Positions 3,001 to 42,500 of a stretch of DNA of 64,000 nt are shown here, piece by piece (the first letter of the stretch is position 1; each line of letters begins with the position of its first letter). The stretch spans positions 90,204,571 through 90,268,570 of the forward strand of contig NC_134846.1 of the NCBI RefSeq assembly GCF_965363235.1, read 5' to 3'. Position numbers and translations under genes: made by a program. Below the pieces are notes generated by a model that was not told the origin of the DNA, did no database searches, and saw only the letters and a list, made by a program, of their open reading frames with translations. This stretch comes from Mytilus galloprovincialis. Taxonomy: Eukaryota; Mollusca; Bivalvia; Mytilida; Mytilidae.

Positions 3001-6000
3001 GAGATCGGGATTCTGTATAATATATATTAACATGCTTTGTATTTCTCTCCCTACTCTTTAATTTTTCGACCCAAATGGTTTGACAAAACAATTATTTTAT
3101 TAAATAGTAAATAGTAACGAGAGCCTTAGCAAACATTTGATTTGGGCAAACTTTTGTAAGAGAATGGAATCGAAAAGTGAAGCATAAAATTGAGAAAGGA
3201 AATGGGGAATGTGTCAAAGCGACATCAACCCGATTATAGAGCAGACAATAGTCGTACGCCACCAATGGGTCTTCAATGTAGCGAAAAACTCCCGCCCCCG
3301 GAGTCGTCCTTCAGTTGGCCCGTTAAAAATATGTATACTAGTTCAGTGATAATGGACGTCATACTAAACTCCGAATTATACACAAGAAACTAAAATTAAA
3401 AATTATACTAGACTAACAAAGGCCAGAGGCTCCTGACTTGGGACAGGCACAAAATTGCGGCGGGGTTAAACATGTTTATGAGATCTCAACCCTCCCCCTA
3501 TACCTCTAGCCATTGTAGAAAAGTAAACGCATAACTATACGCACATTAAAATTCAGTTCAAGTGAAGACCGAGTCCGATGTCCGAAGATGTAACAAAAGA
3601 AAGCAAACAAAATGACAATAATACATAATTAACAACAGACTACTAGCAGTTTCCTGACATGCAAGCTCCAGACCTCAATTAAACTGATTGAAAAATTTTG
3701 TCTTCATCATATGAATATCAGGCCCATTCCCTCCCGTTAGGGGTTTAGTATCATACTATCATATAATGTATGAGAAGAACATAACCCGGGTCATGCCAAC
3801 ACCTGTTTTTTTTTTTTAAATAAATGTGTTTAGGTCCGATGCAGAGACCTTATAAGTGAATCAATATTAAAGCCAAAATATGCAATCTTTAATGACCTGA
3901 CAACAGTATCGTAACTATACCCCTTCTAAATAAGTCTGTATAAAGGTTTTGTAAGCTTTTGAGGTGAATGCTGACATTTCTGTGCTTTGTAAAGAATATC
4001 ACCATAAAAGATTGGATGTAAAATACCTGAACGAATAAGATGTCTGCATGTTGAGTTATACTTATGAATTATTTACTTATACCGATGATAAAATTTAGTA
4101 AATGTTTTGACTAGTTTGTGATATCGAAAACCCTGGTGTAATAATTTTTCAGTTATACATAAATTTCTCTCGCTAAAATCTAATACGTTGTTACATACAC
4201 GAGCGAATCGTACAAGTTGAAATATTATATAAACACCATAAGATGGTGACAAGGGAACTATCCGCACCCCCAAAAAAACATACATTGAGAACGAAAACCA
4301 GTCTTTCTTTTGGTAAATTGCATTAAGGTATTTCAATTTCAGTTTTAAATTACAAAAAAAAAAACATATCTAATTACTTAAACAAGAATAATAAATTACT
4401 TCATACTTTAGTATTGTATTTTCTTGCATTTTTTATTTACGATTCACTGTATTTTTATCACCATAGATACGGGTCAATTCAGTAAACCCAACTGTCGTAA
4501 TGACAAAGATGACGGAAGGACACGAGCATTCAGTGACAAACTTACTGAAGAGAACACCAATGGGGAGGTTTGCTGGTAGGTAGACTAGAGTTTATACTTT
4601 ATGGGGAGGTTTGCTGGTAAGTTTACTAGACAGAATACCTCATGGGAAGTTTTGCTGGTTAGTATACTAGACCGATTACCTCATAAGGTTTGCTGGTAAT
4701 TAAACTAGACCGAATACCTTACGAAAAGGTTTGCTGGTAAGTAGCTAGACCGAATACCTCATGGGAAGGTTTGCTGGTAAGTGTACAAGACTGAATACCT
4801 CATGAGAAGGTTAGCTAGTAAGTATAATAGACAGAATACCTCATGAGAAGGTTTGCTGGTAAGTAGACTAGACCTAACACCTCATGGGAAGGTTGCCGGT
4901 AAGAAGCTAGACCGAATACCTCATGGGAAGGTTTGCTGGTAAGTGTACAAGACTGAATACCCGATTGGAAGGTTTGCTGGTAAGTAGACAAGACATAATA
5001 CATCATGAGAAGGTTTGCTAGTAAGTAGACTAGACCGAATACCTGATGAGAAGGTTTGCTGGTAAGTATACTAGACTATAATCTCATGGGAAGGTTTGCT
5101 GGTGAGTAGACTAGACCGAATACCTCATGAGAAGGTTTGCTGGTAAGTATAATAGACTGTAATATCATGAGAAGGTTTGCTGGTAAGTATACTAGACTGT
5201 AATCTCATGGGAAGGTTTGCTGGTAAGTAGACTAGACCGAATACCTCATGAGAAGGTTTGCTGGTAAGTGTACTAGACCGAATACCTCATGAGAAAGTTT
5301 GCCGGTAAGTATACTAGACTATAATCTCATGGAAAGGTTTGCTGGTAAGTAGACTAGACCGAATACCTCATGAGAAGGTTTGCTGGTAAGTATAATAGAC
5401 TGTAATCTCATGAGAAGGTTTGCTGGTAAGTATACTAGACTGTAATCTCATGGGAGGGTTTGCTGGTAAGTAGACTAGACCGAATCTCTCACGAGAAGGT
5501 TTACTGGTAAGTATACTAGACAGAATACCTCATGAGAAGGATGCTGGTAAGTAGCTAGACTAAATATCTCATGTGAAGGTGTGCTGGTAAGTATACTAGA
5601 AAGAATACCTCATGAGAAGGTTTGCTGGTAAGTAGATCAGACATAATACCTCATGAGAAGGTTTGCTGGTAAGTATATTAGACAGAATACTACATTAGAA
5701 GGTTTGCTGGTAAGTATACTAGACTGTAATCTCATGAGAAGGTTTGCTGGTAAGTAGACTAGACCGAACACCTCATGGGAAGGTTGCTGGTAAGTAGACT
5801 AGACCGAATACCTCATGGGAAGGATGCTTGTAAGTAGCTAGACCGAATACCTCATGGGAAGGTTTGTTGGTAAGTAGACTAGACCGAATACCTCATGGGA
5901 AGGATGCTGGTAAGTAGCTAGACTATATACCTCATAAGAAGGTTTACTGATAAGTATACTAGACTGTAATCTCATGGGAAGGTTTGCTGGTAAGTTTACT

Positions 6001-7849
6001 AGACAGAATACCTCATGAGAAGGTTTGCTGGTAAGTAAACTAGACTGTAATCTCATGGGAAGGTTTGCTGGTAAGAAGACTAGACCGAATACCTCATGAG
6101 AAGGTTTGCTGGTAAGTATACTAGACTGTAATCTCATGGGAAGGTTTGTTGGTAAGTAGACTAGACCGAATATCTCATGAGAAGGTTTGCTGGTAAGTAT
6201 ACTAGACTATAATCTCATGGGAAGGTTTGCTGGTAAGTAGACTAGACCGAATATCTCATGAGAAGGTTTGCTGGTAAGTATACTAGACTATAATCTCATG
6301 GGAAGGTTTGCTGGTAAGTAGACTAGACCGAATATCTCATGAGAAGGTTTGCTGGTAAGTAGACTAGACCAAACACCTCATTGGAAGGTTGCTGGTAAGT
6401 AGACTAGACCGAATACCTCATGGGAAGGATGCTGGTAAGTAGCTAGACTAAATACCTCATATGAAGGTTTGCTGGTAAGTATAATAGACTGTCATCTTAT
6501 GGAAAGGTTTGCTGGTAAGTTGACTAGACAGAATATCTCATGAGAAGGTTTGCTGGTAAGTATACTAGACTGTAATTTCATGGGACGGTTTGCTGGTAAG
6601 TAGCTAGACTAAATACCTCATGTGAAGGTTTGCTGGTAGGTAGACTAGACCGAATACCTCATGAGAAGGTTTGCTGGTAAGTAGACAAGACATAATACCT
6701 CATGAGAAGGTTTGCTGGTAAGTATAATAGACAGAATACCTCATGAGAAGGTTTGCTGGTAAGTATACTAGACTGTAATCTCATGGGAAGGTTTGCTGGT
6801 AAGTAGACTAGACAGAATACCTCATGAGAAGGTTTGCTGATAAGTATACTAGACTGTAATCTCATGGGAAGGTTTGCTGGTAAGTAGACTAGACCGAATA
6901 TCTCATGAGAAGGTTTGCTGGTAAGTATACTAGACTATAATCTCATGGGAAGGTTTGCTGGTAAGTAGACTAGACAGAATACCTCATGAGAAGGTTTGCT
7001 GATAAGTATACTAGACTGTAATCTCATGGGAAGGTTGCTGGTAAGTAGACTAGACCGAATACCTCATGGGAAGGATGCTGGTAAGTAGCTAGACCGAATA
7101 CCTCATGGGAAGGTTTGTTGGTAAGTAGACTAGACCGAATACCTCATGGGAAGGATGCTGGTAAGTAGCTAGACTATATACCTCATGGGAAGGTTTGCTG
7201 GTAAGTATACTAGACTGTAATCTCATGGGAAGGTTTGCTGGTAAGTAGACTAGACCGAATATCTCATGAGAAGGTTTGCTGGTAAGTATACTAGACCGAA
7301 CACCTCATGGGAAGGTTTGCTGGTAAGTAGACTAGACCGAATACCTAATGGGAAGGTTTGCTGGTAAGTGAATCAGACAGAATACTGAAAACTGTTTAAC
7401 ATAAAGATTCGAAACTATACGTAGCACACATGGTTAGTATGTTTATATCTTCAATAAGGCAGCATAACCGAAACTTTAAATTAACATTTTTTGTAGAGGT
7501 TGCCTTTAAGTAATGAATTTTCTCCTTTTTTATTTGTGGTTTAAGACCATCTTTGATAGATAACTTAACTATTTGTGTGGTTCAGTTGGCGACTTTTCGA
7601 CATATGTTCACATTTAATTTAGTAATATTTTCTGATAATGAAGCTTCTGAAAAATCCCACATAATGTTTGTTTTCTTTTTTATGCACGAAACAAAATATT
7701 CTGTAATAAAAAAAACTATGAATTAAGCTAATATTAATATTGTAGACATAAAAGATGTTGTGAATGCCGTAGTATTCCTACTGAGTGACGAAAGTGGCAT
7801 GATAAGTGGCGAATCTCTTCGTGTCGATGGAGGATTAGGAGTTTACTGA
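48..7849 (+). CDS. DCXR-like: DCXR-like short-chain dehydrogenase/reductase, last five exons
   Basis: Exons at 48-202, 970-1012, 2378-2542, 4467-4575 and 7746-7849 have GT-AG borders and compatible phases, and together give 191 residues plus a TGA stop. Known members (human DCXR, 244 residues) are NADP(H)-dependent cytosolic reductases of L-xylulose and dicarbonyls. Visible hallmarks are VNNAG in the first exon, the catalytic serine in NISS, the YSSTK active site (Tyr-x-x-x-Lys) in the third exon, the VNPTVVMT stretch in the fourth and FLLSDESGMISGE near the C-terminus, all in DCXR order. The N-terminal Rossmann glycine motif (about 50 residues) lies left of the window. The acceptor before 2378 (GTTGAAG) is weak in pyrimidines. 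Another carbonyl reductase of the same clan is possible. The last intron is almost filled by a tandem array grown from the preceding exon end. Confidence 0.85.
203..969. other. Intron of the DCXR-like gene, no feature recognised
   Basis: AT-rich sequence with a short AAACA-type simple repeat near 590-617. Open frames here are short, show no family motif and are interrupted by the splice phase of the flanking exons. Confidence 0.5.
1250..1360. repeat. Short minisatellite, 50-bp unit, about two copies
   Basis: The unit contains ACGGCGTATACAA and TCTGACGTGGACAATCATGA and recurs at a spacing of about 50 bases inside the intron after exon 970-1012. It has no link to an exon border. Confidence 0.6.
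1361..1566. repeat. Minisatellite built on TACACCAAACAATACTGTGT
   Basis: About six half-units of 34-37 bases share CACCAAMCAATA followed by TGTGWACG and a variable linker. Alternate half-units resemble each other more than their neighbours, which suggests a dimer of about 70 bases. It adjoins the 1250-1360 array and shares its GACGTGG/CACACGG vocabulary. Confidence 0.6.
1905..1990 (+). repeat. Fragment of the 'GCCAATGAGAC' bivalve interspersed repeat
   Basis: The core TGATTGCCAATGAGACAA and a downstream 'acggtctacaac' stretch match the same family seen at 8195-8400 (minus), 31545-31690 and 61266-61390. This copy is short and diverged. Confidence 0.45.
3150..4345 (-). mobile_element. Penelope-like element, C-terminal coding part and 3' tail (minus strand)
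   Basis: On the minus strand 4336-4073 encodes a peptide with SYGVYI, QLVRFARVCNNVLDFSERN and LLHQGFRYHKLVKTFTKFYH, the C-terminal block that follows the reverse transcriptase in Penelope-like elements of molluscs. The reading continues weakly to about 3850, and 3850-3150 matches the long untranslated tail usually joined to it; part of that tail recurs at 8400-8725. It sits in the intron between exons 2378-2542 and 4467-4575. It is a 5'-truncated, non-functional fragment lacking the polymerase core. Family assignment is from recall. Confidence 0.65.
4560..7385 (+). repeat. Exon-anchored minisatellite of about 70 units, each with a 5' splice site
   Basis: The first unit starts inside coding exon 4467-4575: ATGGGGAGGTTTGCTG followed by the donor GTAGGT. 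Units of 40-41 bases then repeat to 7385, nearly all keeping AAGGTTTGCTG|GTAAGT. Two unit types alternate: one has GTATACTAGACTGTAATCTC after the junction, the other has GTAGACTAGACCGAATACC. This makes a higher-order dimer of about 81 bases over much of the array. The array fills most of the last intron. Antisense open frames rich in LTSKPSHEV are by-products of the repeat. Copy number is length divided by unit size, not a unit-by-unit count. Confidence 0.9.
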
Positions 7850-7889
7850 ACCTATGCTATTCGTACTGTATTGACTTAGAATAACTATG

Positions 7890-7895
7890 AATAAA
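7890..7895 (+). promoter_or_regulatory. Polyadenylation signal AATAAA of the DCXR-like gene
   Basis: A canonical AATAAA lies 41 bases after the TGA stop, followed within about 30 bases by a T- and GT-rich stretch. It fits a very short 3' UTR. No transcript evidence is available here. Confidence 0.6.
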
Positions 7896-10735: not shown

Positions 10736-10841
10736 TATACCAGTCAGAAAATAAGCAGGCAATATTGTGGCGGTTTATTTGTGAGTAAAAGACTGTTGAC
10801 TTATATATTATACTGACCGCAAACAGTAAGAAAGACTAGCA

Positions 10842-10976: not shown

Positions 10977-12392
10977 TTAATCACTCTCTGATCCATCATA
11001 ACTTGCGTCCCAACTATCACTGTCTGTGGTCACTTCATTACACTGATTTTCACCGTAACTCACCCATACAAATTTCAAACACGTAATTCCAAGATAACCC
11101 TGGGCCATAACGACCTTTCCATCGAAGGAATGTAAATAACTTATTCCATCATTATTCGATGATGCAGTAATTTCTGATCCACCAGAGCCCCCAAATGGAC
11201 CATACTCTCGTCCAAAATTTGTGAAAAATTTTAAGCTGTCAATCATCCACCCACTACGAACATTTATTTTAGTGATAACTTCATTTTCTTCCAGTGAAAA
11301 TTCATGTTCTGACACAAATATTGATTCTAACTTTGGTTTTTCACCGTAAATTAAAAGTTTCCCACTTCGATACTGTACATAAATTCCTCCTAGTACTGGT
11401 CGACCATCCCACCTCCTTATCCACAGCTTGAAGTTTATAGGTCTGTCATTTATATCCTTGCCATCTTCCCAAGCTTCAGAAAACTTTTCAAGAACATGAT
11501 GCTCCTGACCACCACAAGCAAAACCTTTTCTTCCAGTTTGAAGCGTTTTACGACAGTTTGCAAACTTGCGATCCAATAGATCTGATTTCGTGTTGGATTC
11601 AGCAGTTATGGCATTCTGAATCAAATCACAATTTAGAATCGGATAAAGATCGGTAACTGATTTCAAATCTTCGGGGTTGTGTATATCACTGAAACGGATT
11701 TCACCAAGCAACTCATGTACGGTTGATGCTTTGAAATCAAAATGACTAACACTTGTAATACTAAGGTACATACCAACTAATTTCAAAATTTCCAGTTCAG
11801 GATTTTCTACAGGAACATTATGATCAAAAACAGTCAGAATATCATTGTGTAGCACTGTTTTAAAGTCGTCTTTCGATAACTTCAAAAATGCTCCATTATT
11901 AATAAGGTCTTTAAAATCTTTCGAAATAAAACTGCATACTGCGTCCAATAAACGTTTCAAATTAAACAGATTACTGAAAGAAACTAAGGCAATCACATTG
12001 TCAGTTTCGATATTATGAGTCATGAACTTTTCACATTCGGTTAGAACAAATTTTATTTGCAGAAAACTTGCTGCCATAAGTAATTCTTGAACAAATCCAA
12101 CTTCTATTTCAATTCTTCCGGTGTAACCATATTCGATAATTTGATTTAAAGTGTCCTCTTTGAACATACTAGGATCTAAATCATACTCTTCAATGTGAGT
12201 GTCACTTTGTTTATTATGATATTTAAAAAGATTTTTGAAATAGTCAGATAATGACGCCAGAACAATCTTATGTGCTGTGATTTGTTTTGTTCCAAATTTT
12301 AATGTAACATCACAATACAATCCTTCTTCCCATGCTTCTAGCATGTTCTGTACTGTGCTATCAGAATGGTTGTCGTCAACCACCTCTGTCAT
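10977..12392 (-). CDS. BTB-BACK protein with C-terminal jacalin-like lectin domain
   Basis: The protein has 471 residues, encoded without introns. Residues about 17-125 form a BTB/POZ domain (YCDVTLKFGTKQITAHKIVL, then ASLSDYFKNLF). Residues about 128-260 match a BACK domain. Residues about 320-446 look like a jacalin-type beta-prism: ITKINVRSGWMIDSLKFFT, a YGPFGGSGGSE loop, then LGITCLKFVW. BTB-BACK proteins normally bind CUL3 and recruit substrates through Kelch repeats; here the lectin-like fold takes that place, so a sugar-directed adaptor is a guess only. The start is the ATG at 12392, because TATTTCAG just upstream at 12413-12420 (minus strand) looks like a 3' splice site and no ATG lies between. 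The acidic, serine-rich tail ends with SESD. Confidence 0.85.
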   Translation of the reverse strand: MTEVVDDNHSDSTVQNMLEAWEEGLYCDVTLKFGTKQITAHKIVLASLSDYFKNLFKYHNKQSDTHIEEYDLDPSMFKEDTLNQIIEYGYTGRIEIEVGFVQELLMAASFLQIKFVLTECEKFMTHNIETDNVIALVSFSNLFNLKRLLDAVCSFISKDFKDLINNGAFLKLSKDDFKTVLHNDILTVFDHNVPVENPELEILKLVGMYLSITSVSHFDFKASTVHELLGEIRFSDIHNPEDLKSVTDLYPILNCDLIQNAITAESNTKSDLLDRKFANCRKTLQTGRKGFACGGQEHHVLEKFSEAWEDGKDINDRPINFKLWIRRWDGRPVLGGIYVQYRSGKLLIYGEKPKLESIFVSEHEFSLEENEVITKINVRSGWMIDSLKFFTNFGREYGPFGGSGGSEITASSNNDGISYLHSFDGKVVMAQGYLGITCLKFVWVSYGENQCNEVTTDSDSWDASYDGSESD

Positions 12393-12412
12393 CTTGTATA
12401 GAAGTCTTGTTC

Positions 12413-12420
12413 TCTGAAAT
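12413..12420 (-). promoter_or_regulatory. Probable 3' splice site before the BTB-BACK-jacalin coding exon
   Basis: On the minus strand a pyrimidine-rich run ends in TATTTCAG, 20 bases before the ATG. It implies a separate 5' untranslated exon upstream on the minus strand (to the right). That exon was not located. Confidence 0.5.
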
Positions 12421-12489
12421 ATAAGCAATTATAAAATTAGGGTATGTTGCATGATGTGTGTATAAATAGGAACAGAACTTTCTTGTTTT

Positions 12490-14110: not shown

Positions 14111-14164
14111 GGATCCGCCACTGTATCTGATAATATTGGTGTAAACAATAAGTAGGTAGATTTT

Positions 14165-15975
14165 CACATTTAATTTTTAGGCTTATGACGAAAACAGAAC
14201 CAACAAGAGGGAAAACACTATCGACCTTATGTTCACATCTCATCCTGGTCATCTTGAGAGATGTAAGACACTTCCTCCAATCGGAAACAGTGACCACGAC
14301 ATCGTACTATTAGACTTAGCAGCAAAAGTAACAAGACCAAAACCAACCAGTAGAACCATCAACCTCTGGAAAAAAACCAATAAGGAGGGAATTAAGAAAA
14401 GCCTTACTAATAACTTCAATTTCAAATTTCAAATTTTGAATTTCAAACCACCAACTTCAGTGATATCAACGCAATGTGGAATAAATTCATGAACATCATC
14501 ATAAATGCAATGACCACATACGTACCAGATAAACTAACCAAGGAGAGATACAGCCACCCTTGAATGAACACATAGTTACGTAAAATTAGAAACAGAAAAC
14601 AGCGTGCATACACCAAGTCTAAAAGATCTCAAAACACTCAAGATTGGAACAAATTTCTGAAGGCAAAGCTACAGAAAGAATCCAGGATTGCTCATGGAAA
14701 ATACATGGAAGACATCATCAGCACAGAACATAAGGAGCAACCAAAACGAATTTGGTCCTACATTAAGAGCAGGAAACAAGAATCCACAGGCACTGTTACA
14801 CTCAAAGACAAAGCCGGACTTCTCCACAGCGATACACAAACTAAAGTTCAATTTTAAACCACCAGTTTCAATCTGTCTACACCAAAGAAGACATACATAA
14901 CATGCCACATATGGGACCAAGTCCATTCCCGACTACGGACAGCATCAGAGTCAGCAAGGCCAGAGTTTACAAGCTACTTCGTGGACTAAGACCATTCGAA
15001 GCCACTGGGCCTGATGAAATTCCAGCCTATACACTCAAAGAAGCAGCTGAATACATATCACCATACCTGACCATACTTTACCAGAAATCTGTGGACACTG
15101 GAATTATCCCTGATAACTGGCGGGCTGCCAACATTGTCCCAGTCTTCAAAAAAAGAAGAAAAACACAAAGCCTAAAACTATCGACCAGTCTCATTGATTT
15201 CAATCTGCTGCAAACTATTGGAACATATTGTTCACAGCACCATCATGGATCACTTTGACCGCCAGCAGATCCTTTGTGACCATCAACACGGTTTCAGATC
15301 CAAAAGATCTTGTGAAACCCAACTCCTGATAACACTAGATGAAATTGGCAAGAATTTAGACCATGGAGAACAGAGAGACATCGTCCTGCTTGATTTCTCC
15401 AAAGCTTTTGACAAAGTGCCCCACACAAAGTGACTCCTCCAAAAAATGGACTACTAGGGAATACGTGGAGTAACACTCAAATGGATTCAAGACTTCCTAA
15501 GCAAGATAACACAATACGTATTGCATGAAGGGCATAAATCCAACCCCCTAGACGTCATCTCAGGGGTGCCTCATGGAACAGTCATCGGACCCCTATTATT
15601 CCTGAATTATATTAATGACCTGCCACAATCAACAACTTCTGAGGCAAGGTTATTTGCAGACGATTGCCTAGTTTATAGAAATATAAAGAACGTAAAGGAT
15701 AGCGAGACACTACAAGACGACCTCAACAAACTCCAAGAGTTGGAATTACGATGGCAGATGAATTTCCATCCTGAGAAGTGCATCGTGATACGGATAACCA
15801 ACAAAAGAAACCCACTGATAAGGAACTACCAACTGCATGGTCACACCCTAGATGCACTTGAGCATGAGAAATATCTGGAAGTCAACATAAATCATGACCT
15901 ACAGTGGAAGACACATATCAACCAGACGGTAGGCAAAGCAAGATTTGTCATATCGAAAACAAAGAGTGATAGTAG
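14165..15975 (+). mobile_element. LINE (Jockey/CR1 group) fragment: endonuclease end to RT thumb
   Basis: Reading frames broken by stops and shifts encode in order: the end of an APE-type endonuclease (NSDHDIVLLDLA near 14287), a linker, the RT entry RPFEATGPDEIPAYTLKEAA, AANIVPVFKK, the segment LISICCKLLEHI, QHGFRSKRSCETQL, IVLLDFSKAFDKVPH, then SGVPHGTVIGPLLFLNYIND and the catalytic RLFADDCLVYR. This order is diagnostic of Jockey/CR1-type non-LTR retrotransposons. At least four frame breaks are visible and ORF1 and the endonuclease catalytic part are missing. The exact clade is not resolved. Confidence 0.85.
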
Positions 15976-15984
15976 AAGGCTCTA

Positions 15985-16615
15985 CCTCAGAGAATCTAGA
16001 TGTTCTTCTGGAGTTCCTCAATGCACTGTCCTAGGTCCACTCTTGTTTCGGGTATACATTTACGACCTGCCTGATACAGTTTCATCTTCTGCGGTTCGCC
16101 TTTTTGCCCATGACAGCTTGTTATATAAGCACATCAGGAGTCAAGCAGATGCAAATAACCTTCAACAAGACCTGACTGCCCTAGAGCAATGGGAACATGT
16201 ACATGTATGGCAGATGAGCTTTCATCCTTCTAAATGCACAGTCATCAGAATAGGCACCAACCGAAAAAAATCATTTTGGAGACACAGTACCACCTACATA
16301 GATACCAACTCGAAGTTGTGGACAGCAGCAAATAACTTGGTGTTACTCTTAGCGAAGACCTAATTTGGAAAAAGCATGCAGAGATAACAGCAGCCAAAGC
16401 ATCAAGAACTCTAAAATTCTTGCGCAACTTCAGGGACTGTAACAAAACTGTCCAAGAAACAACCTACAGATCCATGGTCCGACCATCATTGAAGTATGAG
16501 TCTGCTGTATGGGACCCCTACAAAGTGGAAGACATGAACCGACTCGACAAAGTGCAAAGAAGGGGAGCCCATTATAACCACCATTTGATGAAGATAGTTT
16601 TAACTGTAAATACCA
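15985..16615 (+). mobile_element. Second LINE fragment: RT palm and C-terminal part
   Basis: The RT palm appears again directly after the first copy: SGVPQCTVLGPLLFRVYIYD, then VRLFAHDSLLYKH (the usual ADD reads AHD) and WQMSFHPSKCTVIRIGTNR. After a frame break it continues to ASRTLKFLRNFRDCNKT and AVWDPYKVEDMNRLDKVQRR. Sequence differs enough from the first copy to be another family member rather than a recent duplicate. Confidence 0.8.
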
Positions 16616-16711
16616 GCTTTTTATTTGTACATATTAAACCTGTGTGGAGAGTGGCTCCCTCAGACCTACACCTGGTCAATATTGACAGTCCTCCACGACT
16701 CCTGACCATTA

Positions 16712-17500
16712 TTGGAAGATGAAGCATCAAGGACACTAGAGTTCCTGAGAAGGAACCTAGGACGGTGTAAAACAGAAGTCAAAGCTAATGCCTACATCAC
16801 CTTGGTCAGACTCACCCTTGACTACGCTTCCTCTGTATGGGACCCTTACGAACAAAACCTTGAAAAAGATCTAGAACAAGTACAGAGAAGGGCAGCTAGG
16901 TTCGTGTTCAATGAATACCAAGACGTATCCCCAGGTTGTGTCAGCTCTTTAATGGAGAGACTGAGATGGGAGCCTCTTAAAGATCGCCTCACCATGTCCT
17001 ACAAGATCCACAATAGATTGGTAGATATTGACCCCTCAAACTATTACAAACCCGGAGATTCACGGACCAGAGGAGGCCACCGCATACACCAACAGCGTAC
17101 TCTGAAAGACCAATTCAGGTACTCCTTCTTCCCAAGATCAACCGGGGAATGGAACACTCTAGATACCGGAAAAAGCAACAAAAGCAGCTACACTAGAAGA
17201 GTTCAAGGCCAGCCTTACCATCCTGCCAGAGGCCTTGACAGGAGCTTCTCATACCTAGAACTCTTTAGATCCCAGATGTACATTGTTTTAATTTGTAAAT
17301 AATATTCCTGTAAATACTAGTTACTGCTGTTTTTATTAATTGAGGAGGGAAGGCCTCATGATTTCACGAGCAAGAGTCATTTTTATATCGTCAAGAAGAG
17401 TCCAACTCTGTACTGAAAGAAGAAGAGAACCCATGTCATTGTGATAGCTATCCCTCACTTTGCCCTATGGACCAGGTAAGCTAAAACACAAAAGGGGGAC
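16712..17500 (+). mobile_element. Third LINE fragment: C-terminal domain and 3' tail
   Basis: One open stretch (to 17302) encodes ASRTLEFLRRNLGRCKTEVK, SVWDPYEQNLEKDLEQVQRR, RLRWEPLKDRL and YSFFPRSTGEWN, the conserved C-terminal end of Jockey/CR1-group ORF2. A non-coding tail with GAGGAGGGAAGGCCTCATGA follows. This piece repeats the region already present at 16390-16560, so three partial LINEs lie head to tail. Confidence 0.8.
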
Positions 17501-17534
17501 GGTTCAATTGTAGGGAGGTAAGATATTGTTTTAC

Positions 17535-27574: not shown

Positions 27575-30500
27575 GTTTTTGTAGAGACAACATTTGGTGC
27601 TAATAAACCTGTGACAACAGTTAAAGTTGTAGGTTTGTATTAATTAAAATCTTATCAGAAACAACAAATAGGTAAATAATATGTTACTGTAGATGATGTA
27701 ATTTACATATTACTCTTAAAAGTATTTATTAAATCTGAAGGGCATTTATTTAGGTAGACAAACTTTAATCATAAAATCACAACACACACAGGTACATCAT
27801 GTACATAATAAAAATCAGTTTAAACCTAAATATTATTTGTCACTAAGGTGTATCCATATCTACAAATGTACATATATTTATATACATGATATACGGGTAT
27901 CATGTATTATACCAACAATTCTTTATATTCATGTACATGTACTTCATTCATTGTCATTATTTACAGAAAACTTCTGATCTACCAGAAAAAGGGTTAACAA
28001 ACTGATATTTTTCTTCCTTTATTATTGCAGACATCAGGACTGCATTTACAACATGTAGATATATAAACAATGTTACATTATACTAATATGATCTATTATG
28101 TATGTCAACAATGAACAATATACTTGTATAATTTATTTTTAGAGCCAGGAACTAGAGAAGTACAGATACCATCCCAAGTTAACAGTTTAACTCTTTCTTC
28201 CTTAAATTCATTAGAAATAAAGGTAATTCATTGTAATTAAGTCTGGTACAAGTTGCTATTAGAGTGTAAAAAGTAAATGTGCCAGCTATCCAGCATTTAC
28301 ATAAAAGCAACTACACAAGTGTTTATCACGAAAAAGAAATGTACATGTCTGAATGACAACTGTTGGCATTTACTAATCTTGAAAGTGAAGAATTCACTAT
28401 CATTGAATCTGTGATTTCAATTTAACCCAGTAGCTAGGGTTTCACATGAATTGGGCGTGTTCAATTGTTCAAAAGAACTGATTAAACATTTGATTGATTT
28501 GATCCACAAAAACTCATTCTTATACCAGTCAGATATATAACTCTATAGGGTTATTACAGAAAAATAACATACATATTTTACTGTGGACCTGAAAATGAAA
28601 GAACTGTGATAACATATGTATGTTACATGTTTCAAAGGGGCAATATACATCATTAGTTTAGTAAAAATGTATACAAGTTCAATTGATATTACTATTGTTT
28701 TTATTTATACTTAACTACAGAAAGATATAACAGTTCATAGTTTGTAAATTATGCATAGTACACCTATGTTATTACAGAAAAAATATGCCTGTAATAACTA
28801 AAGGGTGTTATCACAGCTTCTCTATATCACTTCAAAGCATTTGCTCAGACATAGATCATGCTTAATTACAATGTATTTTAATTCATTGTAAGAAATAATG
28901 ACCAGAGCATGTAATGAGGTTCTGTGCAAGCTTCCCAGTAATTCCCAAGTATCTCATATAATAAGTTACATTCCTTTAATAACTAAGCCATGTTATTACA
29001 GCTAAGTCTATCCCTTAATAGCCTTGTCTCATTGATTTACCATGGTTAATCAAAAATGTATTAAACTCATTTAAAAATTAGTTATCAAGGCTATGCATTT
29101 AGTTTCTGCGCAAAGTCTCAAGAGTTCCATAGAGCCCACAATAGATTAGAATATTTTACAAATAACAAACATATGTTATTACAGATTTAGAAAATTAAAG
29201 GAATAAAGAGTAGACAACTCATAAAAATATCTGTAATAACACATGCAAGTTATTTTCTGTAATAACCCTATAGAGTTATATCCCTGACGTATACTATGAT
29301 ATTATTATGTAAGTATTTCTGTATTGGCCTTGTTATTGGTCCGAGGCTTGCTGTATTGGCCTGAGGCGAAAACCCTATAGAGTTATATCCCTGACGTATA
29401 CTATGATATTATTACGTAAGTATTTCTGTATTGGCCTTGTTATTGGTCCGAGGCTTGCTGTATTGGCCTGAGGTGAAGCCGAAGGCCAATACAGCTGGCC
29501 GAGGACCAATAACAAGGCCAATACAGAAATACACGTAATAATATCTTTATTAATTAACTACAGTGTTACAATATTTTTTTAATTTCTTTTCAAAAGAGAT
29601 AAATATTTTTACCTTGAAGTGGAACTATCCAAATCTCAGTTTGTTTCTTTTTATTAGATGCAATACATAATGATCTCGTGCTGTTTCCAGGTGTCTTCAG
29701 CATTTTCTCATCAGATGAATTTTTCTACCCTTTTCAGTCACTATAAAGTGTTACAACTTAAATTTAGACGCAACACATAAATAGTAATTGGAAAGGTACT
29801 GCCATTGCATGTGTTATGCAGAAACTGATTTAAAATCGATGTGAAATTATGAGGTCGTCAAGAAATGAACGTTGTGATAATCTACTCGTTCCCCAAACCT
29901 GAAATAGTTCTATCGTCTGCTTTCAAAGTACTTTTTAAATTGATGTGACCGTCTTTCGCCTGAAATGTATGCCATACTGACATTTTCAGCATGTTTAAGA
30001 TAACTAAATGACAACTGCGTCTTCAAAACAACTGTTTACTTTCAGTTTGTGTTTATCGTGTCTTTCGATGTAAAATCTAGAGACGTTCCGAAATCCTGCA
30101 CTTGTGTCAACTCGGCCAATATAGAATTACTCGGCCAATACAGGAAAAAATCTGTATTGGCCGAGTTATTCTGTATTGGCCCAGTTTACACATTATATTG
30201 CATTGGCAGTTTTCATCATATTAAGTCCAATTACAGTGTAGTTAGTTAATAAAGGTAAAAACGATGATTAACATATTTTCAATCTATATTTATATGAAAT
30301 CAAACAACACTAAAAAAAATCCAATTGGACAGGTTCATTATCTATAAATATGTTTATAGCAGGTTATGTGATTGTTGGCAGTCATCAAAGGTCACCTTAA
30401 AAGTGAGGTAGATTAAAATATACATAAAACAATGATACATATCATCTAGCCCATTCATTATAAATTGTTTATGTTAGACTTTAGAATTTGGATATACATT

Positions 30501-33500
30501 TGAGTATGTTATAAAGCAAATATGAGCATTTGAGTAAAATCAGTGAAAACAAATTTGACAGCTAATACCTCTTTAAAACATACGATTAAAGCTGTCAGTG
30601 ACTTAAGTCTTATCTACTAATGCCTCTATAAAACATATGATTAAAGCTGTCAGTGAATTAAGTCTTATAAAACATATGATTAAAGCTGTCAGTGACTTAA
30701 GTCTTATCTACTAATGCCCCTTTAAAACATATGATTAAAGCAATAACTGTCAGTGACTTAAGTCTTATCTACTAATGCCCCTTTAAAACATATGATTAAA
30801 GCAATAACTGTCAGTGACTTAAGTCTTATCTACTAATGCCCCTTTAAAACATATGATTAAAGCAATAACTGTCAGTGACTTAAGTCTTATCTACTAATGC
30901 CCCTTTAAAACATATGATTAAAGCAATAACTGTCAGTGACTTAAGTCTTATCTACTAATGCCTCTTTAAAACATATGATTAAAGCAATAACTGTCAGTGA
31001 CTTAAGTCTTATCTACTAATGCCCCTTTAAAACATATGATTAAAGCAATAACTGTCAGTGACTTAAGTCTTATCTACTAATGCCCCTTTAAAACATATGA
31101 TTAAAGCAATAACTGTCAGTGACTTAAGTCTTATCTACTAATGCCCCTTTAAAACATATGATTAAAGCAATAACTGTCAGTGACTTAAGTCTTATCTACT
31201 AATGCCTCTTTAAAACATATGATTAAAGCAATAACTGTCAGTGACTTAAGTCTTATCTACTAATGCCTCTTTAAAACATATGATTAAAGCAATAACTGTC
31301 AGTGACTTAAGTCTTATAAAACATATGATTAAAGCTGTCAGTGACTTAAGTCTTATCTACATACATGTAGTTTGTCAGAACAATCATTGTAAAATAATTT
31401 ATATACTGTCATTGACTGTCAGAACTCAGAAGTAGTAATTAGGTTATGATTTCTTTATGATTTCACTTCTAATTTTGTTATTTATGTTTAAAATTTTCCT
31501 ATTTCATTTGATTTGAAGAAGCAGATAATGATCATTTTCACATTAGATATATATGAAGATGTGGTATGAGTGCCAATGAGACAATTCTAAATCCAAGTCA
31601 CAATTTATAAAAGTAAACCATTATAGGTCAAAGTACAGTCTTCAACACGGAGCCTTGGCTCACACCAAACAGCAATGTCTTCTTAGTTGCTATGTAATAA
31701 AGCATTAAACACAAGTTTATGGATTAAATTGAATTTTCTTATTATCCAGGCACCCAGTACATCGACTACTAGTTCTTTATCAGTACCTACTAACAGTGCA
31801 TCTCATCCATCACATACAAGGTCCTTATCAAATGATTCAAGTGAATTCACAGCCTGGAAATTCATGTCAGCCGAAGATAAAGAGGTATGTGTTATATACA
31901 ATTAACTAGTAAGATATAAAATGTTAAAATATTTTAGGCACACTTCTAAATCTCCACAACAAGTGTGTTCATAAAAAATAACATGTACATCTGAACTAAT
32001 AAAGTGTATTAAGATGTCTGAGCAATAAGTATCTAAAACCTAATGCTAATTGGGATGAGCTGTTGAGCTCTAAAAGTAGCAAAAGTAAAGCCAACCCAGC
32101 TGAGAAGTCTTGTACCAGCCCATTTAACTGAGGTTTTTTTTATCAGTCACAAGCTGAGCCTTTGTGTACTAAACTGTAACATTATTTATTTCATCTTTTT
32201 TTTTATTTTAGGATATCTGTGTTTTTGTTGATGAACCTAACAAGAAGTTATTTTGTAAACTATGTAATCAAGTATTCAGAGATCCAGTGATAGTATCATG
32301 TGGGGTATGTATATCAGGTCATGTGATCCAGTGACAGTATCATGTGGGGTATGTATATCAGGTCATGTGATCCAGTGATTGTATCATGTGGGGTGTGTAT
32401 ATCAGGTCATGTGATCCAGTGACAGTATCATGTGGGGTATGTATATCAGGTCATGTGATCCAGTGACAGTATCATGTGGGTTATGTATGTCAGGTCATGT
32501 GATCCAGTAATAGTATCATGTGGGGTATGTATAACAGGTCGTGTGATCCAGTGACAGTATCATGTGGGTTATGTATATCAGGTCATGTGATCCAGTGACA
32601 GTATCATGTGGGGTATGGATGTCAGGTCATGTGATCCAGTGACAGTATCATGTGGGGTATGGATACCAGTTCATGTGATCCAGTGACAGTATCATGTGGG
32701 TTATGTATATCAGGTCATGTGATCCAGTGACAGTATCATGTGGGGTATGTATATCAGGTCATGTGATCCAGTGACAGTATCATGTGGGGTATGTATATCA
32801 GGTCATGTGATCCAGTGACAGTATCATGTGGGGTATGTATATCGGATCATGTGATCCAGTGACAGTATCATGTGGAGTATGTTTGTCAGGTCATGTGATC
32901 CAGTGACAGTATCATGTGGGGTATGGATGTGAGGTCGTGTGATCCAGTGACAGTATCATGTGGGGTATGTATATCAGGTCATGTGATCCAGTGACAGTAT
33001 CATGTGGGGTATGTATATCAGGTCATGTGATCCAGTGACAGTATCATGTGGGGTATGTTTGTCAGGTCATGTGATCCAGTGACAGTATCATGTGGGGTAT
33101 GTTTGTCAGGTCATGTGATCCAGTGACAGTATCATGTGGGGTATGTATATCAGGTCATGTGATCCAGTGACAGTATCATGTGGGGTATGTATATCAGATC
33201 ATGTGATCCAGTGACAGTATCATGTGGGGTATGTATATCAGGTCATGTGATCCAGTGACAGTATCATGTGGGGTATGTATATCGGATCATGTGATCCAGT
33301 GACAGTATCATGTGGGGTATGGATATCAGGTCATGTGATCCAGTGACAGTATCATGTGGGGTATGTATATCAAGTCATGTGATCCAGTGACAGTATCATG
33401 TTGGGTATGTATGTCAGGTCATGTGATCCAGTGACAGTATCATGTGGGGTATGTATATCAGGTCATGTGATCCAGTGACAGTATCATGTGGGGTATGTAT

Positions 33501-36500
33501 ATCAGGTCATGTGATCCAGTGACAGTATCATGTGGGGTATGGATATCAGGTCATGTGATCCAGTGACAGTATCATGTGGGGTATGTATATCAAGTCATGT
33601 GATCCAGTGACAGTATCATGTTGGGTATGTATGTCAGGTCATGTGATCCAGTGATAGTATCATGTGGGGTATGTAAAACAATCATGACTGTAATAGGGTA
33701 TTCCAAGGTCTAGTGATTGTATGATATGGTGAAAGTATAAGGTTATGCAACCATGTTCACAGATTATTACTGTGATGAAAGGTAATATCACAGTACCCAA
33801 ATGCACCTCTGTTGTTAGAAATTGACAGAATTCCTATAGATTATCTCAGTTAATAAACTTTTGTACTTTTATCATTTGTTATTATGAACATTTTACAACA
33901 TAGTTAAAAGATTGGAATACAGTTACCAATACAGTTACCGATGAAAAAACAGGTATCCATTTCCTTAATAATGCATAATAACATGAATAAGCAAGGACTT
34001 ATGTCAAATTGTTTACAAAATATGGAGAATTTAAACAAAACATCATTTATTTATGTTTATTGAGGCGTAGTTAATCATGTGTGCAATTGAGATGCTTTTT
34101 ATATTGGACATTCATAGTTAGGGACTATTATCTTAACTTTTATCAGTAGCAATAATGACATAAATAAAACCTACATTTATATATATATATATTTCAGCAC
34201 ACTTACTGCAGGCAGTGTGTGGCATCACATGATGATGGTAAGTCTCTCTAGCTATATATAGAGAATAAGTAATTAATAAAAGCAGATTTGGGGGCAAATT
34301 TCTATGAAACAACAACCAAATAGCTTCTTTAAACACAAAAATTGAAATGTATAGGCTGTCTATGGTCCATACTAGTGTAATTTTATGTTTTGGGAGATGG
34401 AGGAAATTCTCATGTATATGTTATATCCTCAGAACACTTAATTTTTAATTGTGTTTATTTCTATAAAGGTTAAAATTTAATATTTTCCCCTAATTTTATA
34501 ACCATGACTAACAGTACCTTAAAAATATCATTGTATGATGTACAAATTATATGCATGATGTTTTTAGATGTAAATTTTGTGTCATTGAAAGTTTTGAAAT
34601 ATAATATCTAAGATCATGAAGATTTGCAACTAAAACATATGGACATTTATCCTGAAATAAGATGTTATTGGTGAAACTGCAATATGCTATTTACTGTAAA
34701 TTCAGATATTATTGGATGCATTTATTATTGCAATTTTGTCATTTTGAAATGCGAGTTTAAATTATTCTTATTATAACCATGATAACCCAGTCACATTTTT
34801 CGCAATAATGAAAACTGCAATAATTTCAGAATTTACAGTATATAACTAACTAAACTGTTTGTTTCTAGAATCACAGTGATTTAATTGTCCTTATTTACAG
34901 GTGTTTGTCCCGTTGACAACTCTAATATGCAGGTAGTTGTGGCCAACATAGCTGTATCTGAACAGATTGGTGAGATGTTTATACACTGTAAATATGGCTG
35001 CCAACTAGCAGACGACGGACAATCTTATGTTGTGGATACAGCCACCTGTCCTGTTACGCTCAAAATAAGTCATAGAAAGTAGGTCAAACTTTTATAAGGA
35101 AATATCAATCAATCTATCAATCAAAACATGATTCTTTAATTATGTCATTGGTTATTAGTTTAAGAAATAAATTATAGTTCACCATCTATTAATAATTCTG
35201 AATCTTTATAATTTCTCATTTTAATATAAGTGTGTTCCAATTTTTATTTCAGAGAACATGAAGATATGTGTGATTTTATGAAAGTAAAGTGTCCCAATGG
35301 TGCAGGCTGTGCTCCTGTTTTAAGGAAGGTAAGATCCTGTGTGAGATTTTCCAAAAGACCAAAAATCAACACACCACTTATACATTTAATGAAAAAGATA
35401 CATACACTAGAGTGTATAGTGTATTCATTGTATAGACACAAGAGCATCACCTTTGAAAATAAGATAGGAGGAAACTATTTTAAAATGATTTTTGATAACA
35501 TGAAGCAAAACTTTTAAAGTTTATTTTTAAATGAGGTAAACCATATGTTTCCTGTTTTGGGAAATACAATTTAATTATATACAGCAGAACTAATTTATTT
35601 TTTAATTCTTCGTTAATAATAGGACATAGAAGATCACCTAAGAAGTTGTAACAATGTCAGATGTCCACATCATAAACACAGGTACACATTTTGCATTATT
35701 TTATGGACAGCAAAGTTAGGGCAAATAAACATTTCTAATTTTCAGCATAATTTTGTTGCCCGCCTGGAAAACTTCACATTTAGACATCCACGTTACATTT
35801 AGTGAATCCTGAACTCCTTGAAAATGGCTTACAGAATCAAATCAAACTGTCACTGATCCTTTATAGGAAATTTAGTTTGTGATCAGAGTGAAGTTTGGGT
35901 TTCCCTACACTTTGCCACTTCTACTACACATGAGGTGCTTTATACACTCACACATATTATGCTTTGCAATTAAAGAAAAAGGAAAAAAAAAAACAGCTTT
36001 TACCATCATTGACTATACTAATCTTAGTTCAGTACAAATTAATGCAACTACTTGAACTACTTCACTGATCTATTTGTACATTTTTGGACTACTGTGCTAT
36101 TTAAAAAAAAATGACAATGACAAAGGCTATTTGTTAAGCTGAAATATTTGTCAACACAATAACCACGTTATATTAGTACCATTGCTCAAATCTTTAGACT
36201 TAAATAATTTTTCTTTATTTGCGCAGTGTCACCTATTCATTCTATTTAAAGACATCTAGTTATGGTTCCTTACTTTGACTTAAGGGAGTTCGCTTCTTAG
36301 TTTCAAAGTAATTAACTTTTCAAATCACTAGTTTATATTGGTCAGGAATTAATAAAGGAATCCAAAGAGCAAAAAAAATATATAGGTCACCGTGCTTGTT
36401 TTCGAGATTTGAGCCATTGAAATTTTGGGGGGAAAATATTCTCTCGACTTTTCATAGCTTTATCACTGACAAGTTAAAGTTCTCAAAAACTGTTAAAAAG

Positions 36501-39500
36501 TAATTAAAATTTTATAAGACTTTTACAGATGGCTTATCATTATACATCTTACAGAATTTCAAATAGAAAAATGGGGGTCACTGGGCAAATTTGTTCAAGG
36601 CATTCAAATGGATAAAACCAGAGGATTCCGAAAATCTGACAAAAAATCCAAAACATGACAAGCCAGCTTCCTTAAGTTTTCATAAATTTATTACAATAAT
36701 GATAAATAGTTCTGTTTTATAGTTGTGAGTTTGTGGGCACATCAGATGAGTTAGAAGACCACCTCAGATCATGTAGATTTGAAGGAATGAAAGAATTTCT
36801 GGTCAGAATGGATGAGAAAATGACAGACATGCAATTTTCTCTCAACCAGAAAGATCAGGAAATACAGTTCTTACGATCAATGTTAGGCAAATTAGCTGAA
36901 AGGTTGGAGGCATTAGAAAAGTCATCAGATATGAAAATCGGTATGTTATAATGTCAAATTCTCTTTATTTGTAATTCTAACTGTGAAATATAAAATTTAA
37001 TATTTCAGCAATTGCTACATTTGCCAGAAACCAGTTTGATGTTTAGGACTTTTTGGAATCCTAAAAGAAAATTCAATTTTGATAAAACAAATATTTTTGA
37101 TAAAAAAAAGTCATTTTATGTTTATTTAAATCTTATGTGGCAAAATATGGATTTGTCTTTCCAATGATTTAAACCATAAAATATTTTACCATTTCTATCA
37201 CATCTTATAATAGCTGAAGATTGCTTTTTTATATTGGCAAGTGAATTCTTTACACAATGTCAGGTTCCATAAATTAAAGATAAAGAAAGAAATCTCTCTT
37301 TCAATCAATATTCAAGTTCTCATCCTTTTATAGTTTGTTGTCGAGCCTACAACTTTAGTTGCAGAAAGCTTGACATAGAGATAGTGATCCGGCGGCTACG
37401 ACGGAGGTGGCGGCATTAGCTCACTTCTTAAAAGCTTTATATTTTAGAAGGTTGAAGACCTGGATGCTTCATACTTTGTATATAGATGCCTCATGTTACG
37501 AAATTTCCGTCAGTAGCATGTCCAATATCCTTGACCTCATTTTCATGGTTCAGTGACTACTTGAAAAAAAGTTAAGATTTTTTATAATATTAAATATTTG
37601 TTTTATCAAAATTGAATTTTCTTTTAGGATTACAAAAAATTCCTAAACATCAAACTGGTTTCTGGCAAACGTAGCAATTGCTGAAATATTATTGTGTTGA
37701 CAAATATTTCAGCTGAACAAATAGCCTTTGTCATTGTCAATTTTTTTTAAATATAAGTAATAGGATAACTATATTTGGTATGTGCATACCTTGCAAGGTC
37801 CTCATGCCCGTCAGACAGTTTTCACTTGACCTCGACCTCACTTCATGGATTAGTGAACCAGGTAAAGTTTTGGTGGTCAAGTCCATAACTCAGATACTAT
37901 AAGCAATAGGTCTTGTACATTCGGTGTATGGAAGGACTTTAAGGTGTACATGTCCAACTGGCAGGTGTCATCTGACCTTGATCTCATTTTCATGGTTCAG
38001 TGGTTATAGTTAATTTTTTGTGTTTTGGTCTGTTTTTCTTATACTGTATGCAATAGGTTAACTATATTTGGTGTATGGAATGATTGTAAGGTGTACATGT
38101 CTAGCTGGCAGATGTCATCTGACCTTGACCTCATTTTCATGGTTCAGTGGTCAAAGTTAAGTTTTTGAGTTTTGGTCTTTTTTTCCAATTCTATATGCAA
38201 AAGGTCAACTATATTTGTTGTATGGAAGAATTGTTAGCTATTCATGTCTGCCTGGCATTGTCCGTCTTACCTTGACCTCATTTTCATATGGTTCATTGGT
38301 CAAAGAGGGGGGGGTAAGAGGGGTCCTGATCCCGAAATCCTGGGCTAAAAACACGAAATCCTGAAATCCCAGGCTTAAAAACACAAATTCCTGAGGTCCC
38401 GAAATTCGAAAAAAGAATTCCCTGATCCCGAAAGGGTCAATCCCGAAATCCCAAGCTTAAAAACACCCGATCCCAGAGTCCCCATAAAGGTCCTACTCCC
38501 ACCCCGTCAATGTTTAGTTTTCTTGGGTAATGTTAAGTTTATGTGACAGTTGTAATAAAGCTTTATATTCAGGACTATCAACATAATATCAATGATTAGT
38601 AAAGAAGGCGAGACATTTCAGCGTGTGCACTCTTGTGATTTTACTTATAAAGACAAGTTTTGGTATGTCCTTTATAAAGCCAAGATACTGTTGTATGGAG
38701 TTATGTCTTCAACAATATTCTCCAATGGACAACTAAAACATGATTTGAAATCATGCACATACCTTGTCAAATCTTTAATACATTCAAAACTATCCTTATT
38801 TAAATAGTGACAACATTAGAAACTTCTAACATCTTTCAGACTATGCACTATATTATATATATATATATATACATCAAATTTTGAAAGTTTTCTTTCAACC
38901 AAGTATTCTTACGTTTTTCATTTTCTTTATAGATTTATTGGAACATAATCAAAATAAAATAATGACCACTATCATGGATTGTCAGAGAGATTACGCTGTT
39001 ATACATGTAAGTTCAAAGTAGTTTCAATCAATTGTTAATTTATTGTTATTCTTTTTTTTTTAATATTTCTTATACAGATTTTCAATTAAAAAGTTAGATA
39101 GTATGATGTGTGTTCTATTATGCAGTTATTTTAAGTTTTTCTTTTAAATGAAGATTCTGGGTGATAGTTTAAGTAGACATTTTTGTGTCTATGTTAAAAT
39201 TCTGACAGAAGAAAGTATAGTTATCTCACCATTTCTGAATTCTTGTAACAAAACTGTGTTTTATTTATTTCAGGATGATTTAGCACATCTCAACAGTATT
39301 GTAAATGGCCGTAATGTTACCATCGGAAGTAAGTGTGAACAGATAACTGTATATGTATACATTTATAAGTAAAATGAAGCTTGTCTAAAATTTGTCTTTT
39401 ACAAAATCTGATTAGATAATTAACAGTTACTCAAACCACAACATGTAAACTGATTTGTTGATATGGACATATCTTAAATATTCCTTCCTTATTTTCAGTT

Positions 39501-42500
39501 AAACAGTGAGTACCTTTCTCATATGCATCCAAATTAAACATTAAGAAATATTTGAACTATTTATAAGTTTTGTATTAGAATATGTATAACAGACTGTAAA
39601 TAAAGAGTTGCAAATCTCAATTAGAAAATTGGCTGCTGCAAAATCTGTTTTACTAAATTTCGTGTAAGATTTCAATGAGACATTTTTCAAGTGAAAAAAA
39701 GAACATCTGCCAATAATATTGACATGTAAGTAATGTTATAAAGCTGAACATAATACAAGATGTTTTATTTAGTAAAATATAACCTAAATATATAATGTAA
39801 ATTTCAGCGTATGACCCACAACAGGTGATCAGATGTAGAGGTACCTTTGTAGGACACCAGGTAAATAATCTTAACAAGAAATATATTCCATTTTAAATCC
39901 AATAAATTTATACGATATCAGTTTTAGAATAGATGCTATTTGATTAAAATATAATCATGATAATAAGACCAAAAGATAAATCATTTTCAAACCAATTTTC
40001 AAAATCAAAAGACAGAGCTGTTAAAATTTTGCAACAATAAATAAAACACATTTACACATTTCAAAAATACTTTTGATTTTCTGCTATTTACTTTTTTTTT
40101 AAGTACAAAAAGCTGTAGGATTCTGCAAAATTTTAGAAAAAGAATTAAATTATGATTTATGGTGTGTTTTCTATTACAGGGTCCAGTATGGTGTCTGTGT
40201 ATGTCTGGTGATTTGTTGTTTAGTGGGTCTTCAGATAAAACTGTCAAGGTAAGATAAGTTACATACATTTGTATTGAGCTTTTTAATCCTCTGAACTTTA
40301 TTCTTTTTTTGTGTAATAACATTCAAAATTACTTCACTTTATTGACATGGATACATATTCAGGTCAGTAACATGTTTTTAATGCCATGAGTATATAAAAT
40401 GCTTTGTACTAGACCAACATGCCGAGTCAAATTTTTAATGTGCTAATTGTCAAGTATGATATTGTATCTTCTATTTTAGGTTTGGGATACTGGCAATAAT
40501 TACAAATGTTTGAAGACTCTCGAGGCTCACACAGGAATTGTCCTGGCATTATGTACATATGGTAACAAATTATTCAGTGGCTCACAGGATTGTAAAATTA
40601 TAGTAAGTAATGTTTTTGCATAGATGTTTCGTAAGTTGTTCACATGATAAAAGTATAGTTGAAATAACTGAGAACCAATGTCTGAATCTCAAAATGTAGT
40701 CAGAGGTCAGTAAATTTAAAATAATCACTTAAAACTAACACAACTTTATATGCTGATGAATTTAGGAGGGTATGTCTTCAAGACTTTTTATGGCGCTTCA
40801 TGTCAGCATACACCATGTGATATGTTTTTATAGCTTATCAACTTCCTGATTACCAAATTATTAAAGCAGGGGTATCATAAGGGTGCAGAAGCTCACAGTA
40901 TTTTTTATATATTAAAAGGATCATTTTTTTTTTCCAGATTTGGAATATTGATACACTGGAAAAGGTTGCTGAAATTGAAGCTCATGAAAATCCTGTTTGT
41001 ACTCTAACTGCTGCCAAAAATATGATCTTCAGTGGATCACTAAAAGTTATTAAGGTATGTAATGTGGTTGTTGATTGGATACTGTCACTCTGAAGAAAAC
41101 AAAACAACCAGAAACAACAAATCCAACAAGTTTTATTGAATACTCATTATTAAAATCAATCGAAATCAGCTGTATTTGTGAGAGGCCACTTAGTATTATA
41201 ACCTTGATATGTTAAAAATTAATAATGCTTCACATTATAATATGCTATGTTTTGTTTTATCTAGCTGTGTTTTTTATATTGTACATAACTATCTGATTCA
41301 TTGGCAAATATGAGTTGTTGATTTGGCCAAAATAAACAGTATTTTTGTGCATATGTTGGTTCATTTAATACACAAGATTAATTGATGCGGCCACAGAACA
41401 CAAGAATATATATCCCTTATATTTTGGTTTGTTACACAAAAAGGTATATAGTGTTTTTCATCCCAGTACAACATGATTACCACAGTCTATATTATATTTC
41501 AGATATGGGATGTACATACATTGAAGTTAAAGTCTATACTATATTTTAGATATGGGATGTACATTCATTGAAGATAAAGTCTGTATTATATTTTAGATAT
41601 GGGATGTACATACATTGAAGTTAAAGTCTGTATTATATTTTAGATATGGGATGTACATACATTGAAGTTAAAGTCTGTATTATATTTTAGATATGGGATG
41701 TACATACATTGAAGTTAAAGTCTGTATTATATTTTAGATATGGGATGTACATACATTGAAGTTAAAGTCTGTATTATATTTCAGATATGGGATGTACATA
41801 CATTGAAGTTAAAGTGTGAACTGACAGGTTTGAACCATTGGGTGAGAGCACTTGTAGCCACACAGAACCATCTATACAGTGGATCATACCAGACAGTCAA
41901 GGTAAGCTCATACATTGTAGCCACACAGAACCATTTATACAGTGGATCATACCAGACCGTCAAGGTAAGCTCATACATTGTAGCCACACAGAACCATCTA
42001 TACAGTGGATCATACCAGACAGTCAAGGTAAGCTCATACATTGTAGAACATCTGTATTTATAGATTATGGTTGATCATCTCAACGAGATTGATTTTCTCG
42101 CTTGGGCTGGTACAGCGAAAGTGAGAAAAACAATCGAGTTGAGATGACCAATGATAATCTGTTTATCTCTATTGTACCTATGACGACGTTGTCAATTTCA
42201 ATGTCAATTTCGTTAGCAACGCCACATGTCCTCCTTAGTTTCTAGCGATAATTTTTCCATCTCAAGCGAGAAGCATGATATGAAATTTATCACAAAAAAA
42301 GATCAAAAGAAAAATGCACAAAATAGCGATAATTATTTTTATCGCTATTTTACGAATTTTTCCTTTTGATCTTACTGACTGATAATTTCCTTTCTCAGTG
42401 GAGTCAAGTGATATGATAAATTATCCCTAGAAATTAAGGGAACATGTGCTGTTGTCAATGAAATTAACAACGTCTTCTTAGGTAAAATAGTGATAAACAG

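Follow-up and report, generated by a model that had tools for sequence, protein, structure and literature searches.

Minisatellites across exon borders in two genes

A 64,000-nucleotide stretch of the Mytilus galloprovincialis genome (the window, C9:90204571-90268570; the genome comprises 1.385 Gb in 331 contigs) holds four minisatellites that straddle exon borders and multiply the splice sites of two genes, one similar to short-chain dehydrogenases/reductases (SDR-like) and one similar to TRAF7. In arrays 1-3 the exon-proximal site is the only one, among those tested, that keeps the reading frame. We consider it probable that these are minisatellites of the type known in lancelets as mirages, not a novel splicing device but a by-product of general tandem duplication that is tolerated as the exon-proximal site is the one used.

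The features concerned are given below in window coordinates.

48..7849, + strand: 3' part of the SDR-like gene, with exons 48-202, 970-1012, 2378-2542, 4467-4575 and 7746-7849 (stop)
4560..7385, + strand: array 1, 41 bp x 70, multiplying a 5' splice site
27575..46885, + strand: TRAF7-like gene, 18 exons modelled, 599 codons without a stop
32281..33675, + strand: array 2, 44 bp x 32, multiplying the 5' splice site of the RING exon
41484..41815, + strand: array 3, 47 bp x 7, multiplying a 3' splice site
41785..41901, + strand: WD40 exon of 117 nt, both ends multiplied (arrays 3 and 4)
41852..42046, + strand: array 4, 63 bp x 3.1, multiplying a 5' splice site

The original prediction, made from the sequence of this window, had proposed these four arrays, and Tandem Repeats Finder (TRF) recovered them all with 69.9, 31.7, 7.1 and 3.1 copies, respectively; the spliced gene models agree that the multiplied site is a 5' splice site in three of them and a 3' splice site in the remaining one. 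The arrays had also been said to begin exactly on an exon border. The functional junction does lie inside the outermost unit of each, but the arrays straddle the border rather than starting on it, since the respective exon contributes its last 16, 24 and 50 nt to the start of arrays 1, 2 and 4, and its first 31 nt to the end of array 3. Tandem arrays are more numerous in the window than the thirteen or so first estimated: after merging of TRF rows there are 32 distinct arrays with a period of at least 15, covering 10,631 of the 64,000 bases, while the exons modelled for both genes amount to 2,373 bases, or 3.7% of the window, where the original prediction had put coding exons at about 6%. Assembly error, which the original prediction had named as a possible refutation, was rejected as unlikely because the copies differ among themselves (inter-copy matches of 83-96% in arrays 1-4) and arrays of this design are found in unrelated genes as well.

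We propose that local tandem duplication and expansion would strike sequence throughout genes in this repeat-rich genome. Where the duplicated piece straddled an exon border the surplus copies would land in the intron, and splicing would keep to the exon-proximal copy, that is, the first donor or the last acceptor, which gives the shortest exon. The surplus copies would be tolerated because splicing stays on that copy, and could afterwards drift and grow like any other minisatellite of an intron. Exon definition would predict the choice that gives the shortest exon. From the sequence we infer the site used in the cell, exon definition as the reason for its use and the neutrality of the remaining copies. 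General duplication in which some junction-straddling products survive fits the facts, as would a moderate preference for junctions.

The exon-proximal site and the reading frame

The five exons of the SDR-like gene, which we presume to encode an SDR from motifs read in the translation, join into one frame that is open as far as the native stop. Each unit of array 1 consists of 16 nt of exon end and 25 nt of intron start, and the spliced gene model places the functional donor after position 4575, in the first copy. Among 62 sites with the donor pattern, only this first one leads to the native stop. The GT is retained in 67 of the 70 units. The functional donor obtains a matrix score of 4.1, the other copies have a median of 6.8, and 60 of the 69 intronic copies score higher than the functional site, so in array 1 the choice of site is not accounted for by splice strength.

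The TRAF7-like product carries zf-RING_UBOX, zf-TRAF and WD40 domains (Pfam) and matches the TRAF7 segment of PDB 8ims (E 3.2e-29); the gene probably has more exons outside the modelled part. In array 2 the unit combines 24 nt of RING exon end with 20 nt of intron start, and the functional donor of the spliced gene model lies after 32304, again in the first copy; of 25 GGG|GTATG sites this is the only one that avoids a premature stop. Array 3 mirrors this arrangement at a 3' splice site, its unit comprising 16 nt of intron end and 31 nt of exon start. Its functional acceptor, before 41785, is the last of seven, and all six upstream acceptors bring a stop. Array 4, with units of 50 nt of exon end and 13 nt of intron start, behaves differently: its donors after 41901, 41964 and 42027 are all in frame and stop-free, adding 0, 21 and 42 residues, the first of them giving the plain 117-nt exon.

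An intron of the TRAF7-like gene holds a further array at window positions 30686-31317 (61 bp x 10.4, 99% matches), which is probably very recent.

The same architecture in other genes

Exons of three unrelated families were sampled elsewhere in the genome: chaperonin (PF00118, 30 of 49 matches), kinesin (PF00225, 30 of 125) and myosin (PF00063, 40 of 93, being the first 46 listed minus 6 passed over, mostly one paralog pair on C10). All family matches listed, those of further families included, lie on C1-C14, which would be in keeping with 14 pairs of chromosomes in a mussel. A further 15 matches within the sampled loci, drawn only from list rows that looked near them, brought the total to 115; partial matches that recur within the L064 array were left out. 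In the sampled loci, 205,142 bases in total, TRF reported 52 array rows, which cover 18,124 bases. Multiplied splice sites were found in five of the 30 kinesin loci.

L045: 3' splice site, 82x2
L050: 5' splice site, 41x8
L053: 5' splice site, 90x8
L064, 819-1775: 3' splice site, 133 bp x 6; the opposite exon end carries a weaker 5'-site repeat
L070: 3' splice site, 94x3.2

The L064 exon thus has repeats at both ends, as does the TRAF7-like exon 41785-41901. On C8 there is a sixth kinesin array (83 bp x 8.9), whose unit takes in the end of a coding stretch and its donor. On C12 a chaperonin gene has a donor array at approximately 4801148-4807539, where an 87-bp unit occurs at both ends of an intron, about 6.4 kb apart, and the units of the two ends are 96-98% identical; from the two ends that were read, this may be one array of about 70 units if it is continuous. 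Two myosin loci, L088 and L112 (63 bp), carry donor repeats. Both boundary types are affected, with five donors and three acceptors among the eight junctions counted below. The list of helicase matches was scanned by eye for tandem partial exon matches and none stood out.

Seven of the eight sampled arrays tested would run into a stop if the next copy were used; the exception is L112. The set does not contain the C12 and C8 arrays, and its donor row for L064 is unreliable because the TRF period misses the next donor. These results bear on the idea that the arrays provide alternative splice sites for protein variants, as in human IFI6, where two of the repeat units further downstream reportedly act as donors (PMC4526556). 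The 63-bp units of array 4 and of L112 do stay in frame and free of stops, as such a role would demand, but the stops in arrays 1-3 and in most of the sampled arrays speak against it, and an insertion of 21 residues into a WD40 blade would likely be harmful. We regard this explanation as extremely improbable.

Paralogs and the origin of the arrays

Two SDR-like paralogs lie about 12-29 kb upstream of the window, and neither has an array at the junction of array 1. In the farther one the intron opens with a unit-like sequence, and exactly 41 bases on a second unit begins, represented by its first 12 bases, of which 11 agree with the array consensus; these 1.3 units may represent either a direct repeat that could seed an array or the remnant of one. 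In the nearer paralog, which appears frameshifted, part of the last exon, together with the stop codon, forms a 71 bp x 6 array (C9:90192442-90192865, L011 3872-4295). Because this array lies inside an exon, the duplication process is not confined to junctions.

A genome search with queries from the arrays scored the best candidates only and skipped very common words. Among the candidates scored, queries from arrays 2-4 matched nothing but themselves, and the array 1 query matched itself and the paralog junction 30 kb upstream. A dispersed or mobile minisatellite was rejected, as no related arrays were seen at unrelated places among these candidates. Inspection by eye for microhomology at the duplication ends, in L045 only, gave nothing firm.

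Variability of the surplus splice sites

The original prediction had offered selection for the arrays as one explanation, the extra sites serving as redundant donors or as decoys for the U1 small nuclear ribonucleoprotein (snRNP) that restrain premature polyadenylation. We compared the variability of donor, exonic and intronic columns in four arrays (array 1, array 2, L050 and L053). In array 1 the donor columns vary least, at 2.9% against 8.0% for exonic and 15.5% for intronic columns (P 0.073), and in L053 they are invariant (0.0% against 2.0-2.1% elsewhere, P 0.37); these two arrays, together with the retention of GT noted above for array 1, are what selection would lead one to expect. Array 2 and L050 show the opposite, with donor columns at 4.2% against 0.9% for the rest of the exonic columns (P 0.27) and at 3.9% against 1.7% (P 0.28), respectively. 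No sign of consistent upkeep of the surplus sites was found, P 0.05 being reached in none of the four arrays.

The remaining evidence also runs against selection. Decoys for U1 fail to explain the set because 3' splice sites are multiplied too; the extra sites of arrays 1-3 would truncate the proteins if used; and both SDR-like paralogs manage without an array. Selection for splice-site arrays is therefore, in our judgement, very unlikely.

Frequency at junctions compared with chance

Junctions in the sample were placed with simple splice matrices, and 44 of 181 score weakly, so that some are probably wrong. By plain coverage, arrays include seven of the 181 junctions, where intronic points would give 11.0 (lower-tail P 0.058), which is no excess; at this first count the families contributed 5 of 51 (kinesin), 0 of 55 (chaperonin) and 2 of 75 (myosin) junctions. 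We judged the coverage of random points to be too generous a null because a tolerated junction array needs its outermost unit on the junction. The test was therefore repeated with a terminal-unit null, in which the outermost unit of an array must sit on the junction and the comparison is again with intronic points. The L112 junction was shifted by hand from the second donor to the first, which raised the count from seven to eight. Outside the count remain L053 (the 90x8 donor array, by a rule concerning domain ends), the C8 kinesin array, whose junction is not annotated by a match, and L029, a 24x2 repeat that ends at an acceptor with less than 3 nt on the exon side.

With this null, eight of 208 junctions carry an array, compared with 4.4 expected from the pooled background (P 0.077) or 3.4 from the region-matched one (P 0.023). 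For arrays of at least 2.5 copies the count is 6 against 3.2 (pooled) or 2.4 (region-matched), and for at least 5 copies it is 3 against 1.2 or 0.9. When the 11 rows of known junction arrays, out of 52, were removed from the background, the expectation fell to 3.9 (P 0.044) or 3.0 (P 0.012). These P values are uncorrected across the several nulls. In the window, which was picked for these arrays and is biased accordingly, 4 of 45 modelled junctions stand against 1.35 expected from the terminal-unit null (P 0.046), with 4 against 0.83 at 2.5 or more copies (P 0.009) and 3 against 0.14 at 5 or more. Junction arrays are frequent, and the counts suggest a bias that is at most modest, about 2- to 2.6-fold.

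The units of 99 arrays were also compared with background segments for donor-like sites. The distributions of donor scores do not differ (P 0.48). Strong donor-like sites occur in 5.1% of the 99 array rows and 2.0% of the background segments, and at a higher cut-off in 1.0% and 0.5%.

Several of these observations weigh against a neutral by-product of general duplication. The excess over what the terminal-unit null predicts (8 against 3.0-4.4, P 0.012-0.077) is unexpected under neutrality combined with purifying selection. All five rows with strong donors are junction arrays (L053, L064, window array 4, C8 and the far end of the C12 chaperonin array), two of the five probably being the two ends of one array. 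The arrays at both ends of two exons (window 41785-41901 and L064) suggest local hot spots, and in array 1 the lowest variability is found in the donor columns.

The excess, the window counts, the two doubly affected exons and the five strong-donor rows are also the observations that favour the other explanation raised in the original prediction, a duplication process seeded at exon-intron junctions, in which tandem duplications would be born there preferentially, for instance at breaks linked to transcription or splicing. The support from the terminal-unit comparison is weak, however, its P values depending on which of the several nulls is taken, and plain coverage gives no excess. The family counts are uneven, the donor scores of array units overall show no difference from the background, and the array of the frameshifted-looking SDR-like paralog lies wholly within an exon. 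We consider junction-seeded duplication rather unlikely. About the same credence goes to a bolder form, in which minisatellites would arise preferentially at junctions through a duplication process tied to splicing or transcription, at 2-3 times the background (about 4% of the junctions in the sample) and in some cases at both ends of a single exon, and would steadily lengthen introns from their edges. A general duplication process with tolerance of the surplus copies remains the explanation that we prefer; in its favour are the recurrence of junction arrays in other genes, the abundance of tandem arrays in the background and a junction count no higher than plain coverage predicts.

Relation to described systems and significance

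The original prediction knew of no described system of this kind, but two exist. Mirages of the lancelet are known from Adh3, globins, troponin C and PGBD5; in published accounts (PMC3902484 among them), their tandem units are part exonic and part intronic across both 5' and 3' boundaries, they leave regular splicing undisturbed, and their clusters show length and somatic instability. The mussel arrays resemble them in their border-spanning units, seen in arrays 1-4 and at the eight counted junctions of the sample, and in that 5' and 3' boundaries are both hit, as by the three donor arrays and one acceptor array of the window. They differ in belonging to another genome, in reaching up to 70 units, in occupying both ends of one exon and in having an estimated frequency per junction.

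In human IFI6 a minisatellite likewise supplies multiple splice donors from its units, and two downstream units are reported to be used for isoforms (PMC4526556), whereas in arrays 1-3 the protein would be cut short by use of any other site tested. Work on human paralogs indicates that tandem repeats at boundaries can make exonic copies intronic (PMC2812944; model in PMC3087553); the present arrays differ in that it is the ends of existing introns that grow and no new intron is shown. A minisatellite of abalone is described in PMC6905558 as intronic, not as junction-spanning. Literature searches, some of them aimed at mussels or bivalves, found no mirages in molluscs, which is no proof of absence. 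New here are the genome, the size of up to 70 units, an exon with an array at each of its ends and the frequency estimate of 8/208.

If about 4% of junctions (8/208 sampled) edge arrays of their own splice site, the mussel provides a natural experiment on the choice of splice sites: dozens of downstream donors, often stronger by matrix (60/69 in array 1), are on offer and yet the protein requires the outermost one. Exon definition thereby becomes directly testable in living animals. The arrays are also a warning to gene annotation pipelines, which may be led to false exons, and they represent a possible route for introns to grow or for pieces of exons to turn intronic.

Other features of the window and genome

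A 483-codon open frame on the minus strand of the window (10980-12428) presumably encodes a BTB/POZ-like protein, from a reading of the translation by eye. At 14181-17299 on the plus strand there are broken reading frames of reverse-transcriptase-like character, which on the same basis we take to be remains of a retroelement without long terminal repeats (non-LTR). Elsewhere in the genome, protein-kinase frames with near-equal scores form dense tandem clusters at C1:45763305-45812657, with a spacing of about 1.85 kb, and at C3:92336287-92352768, with a spacing of about 1.73 kb.

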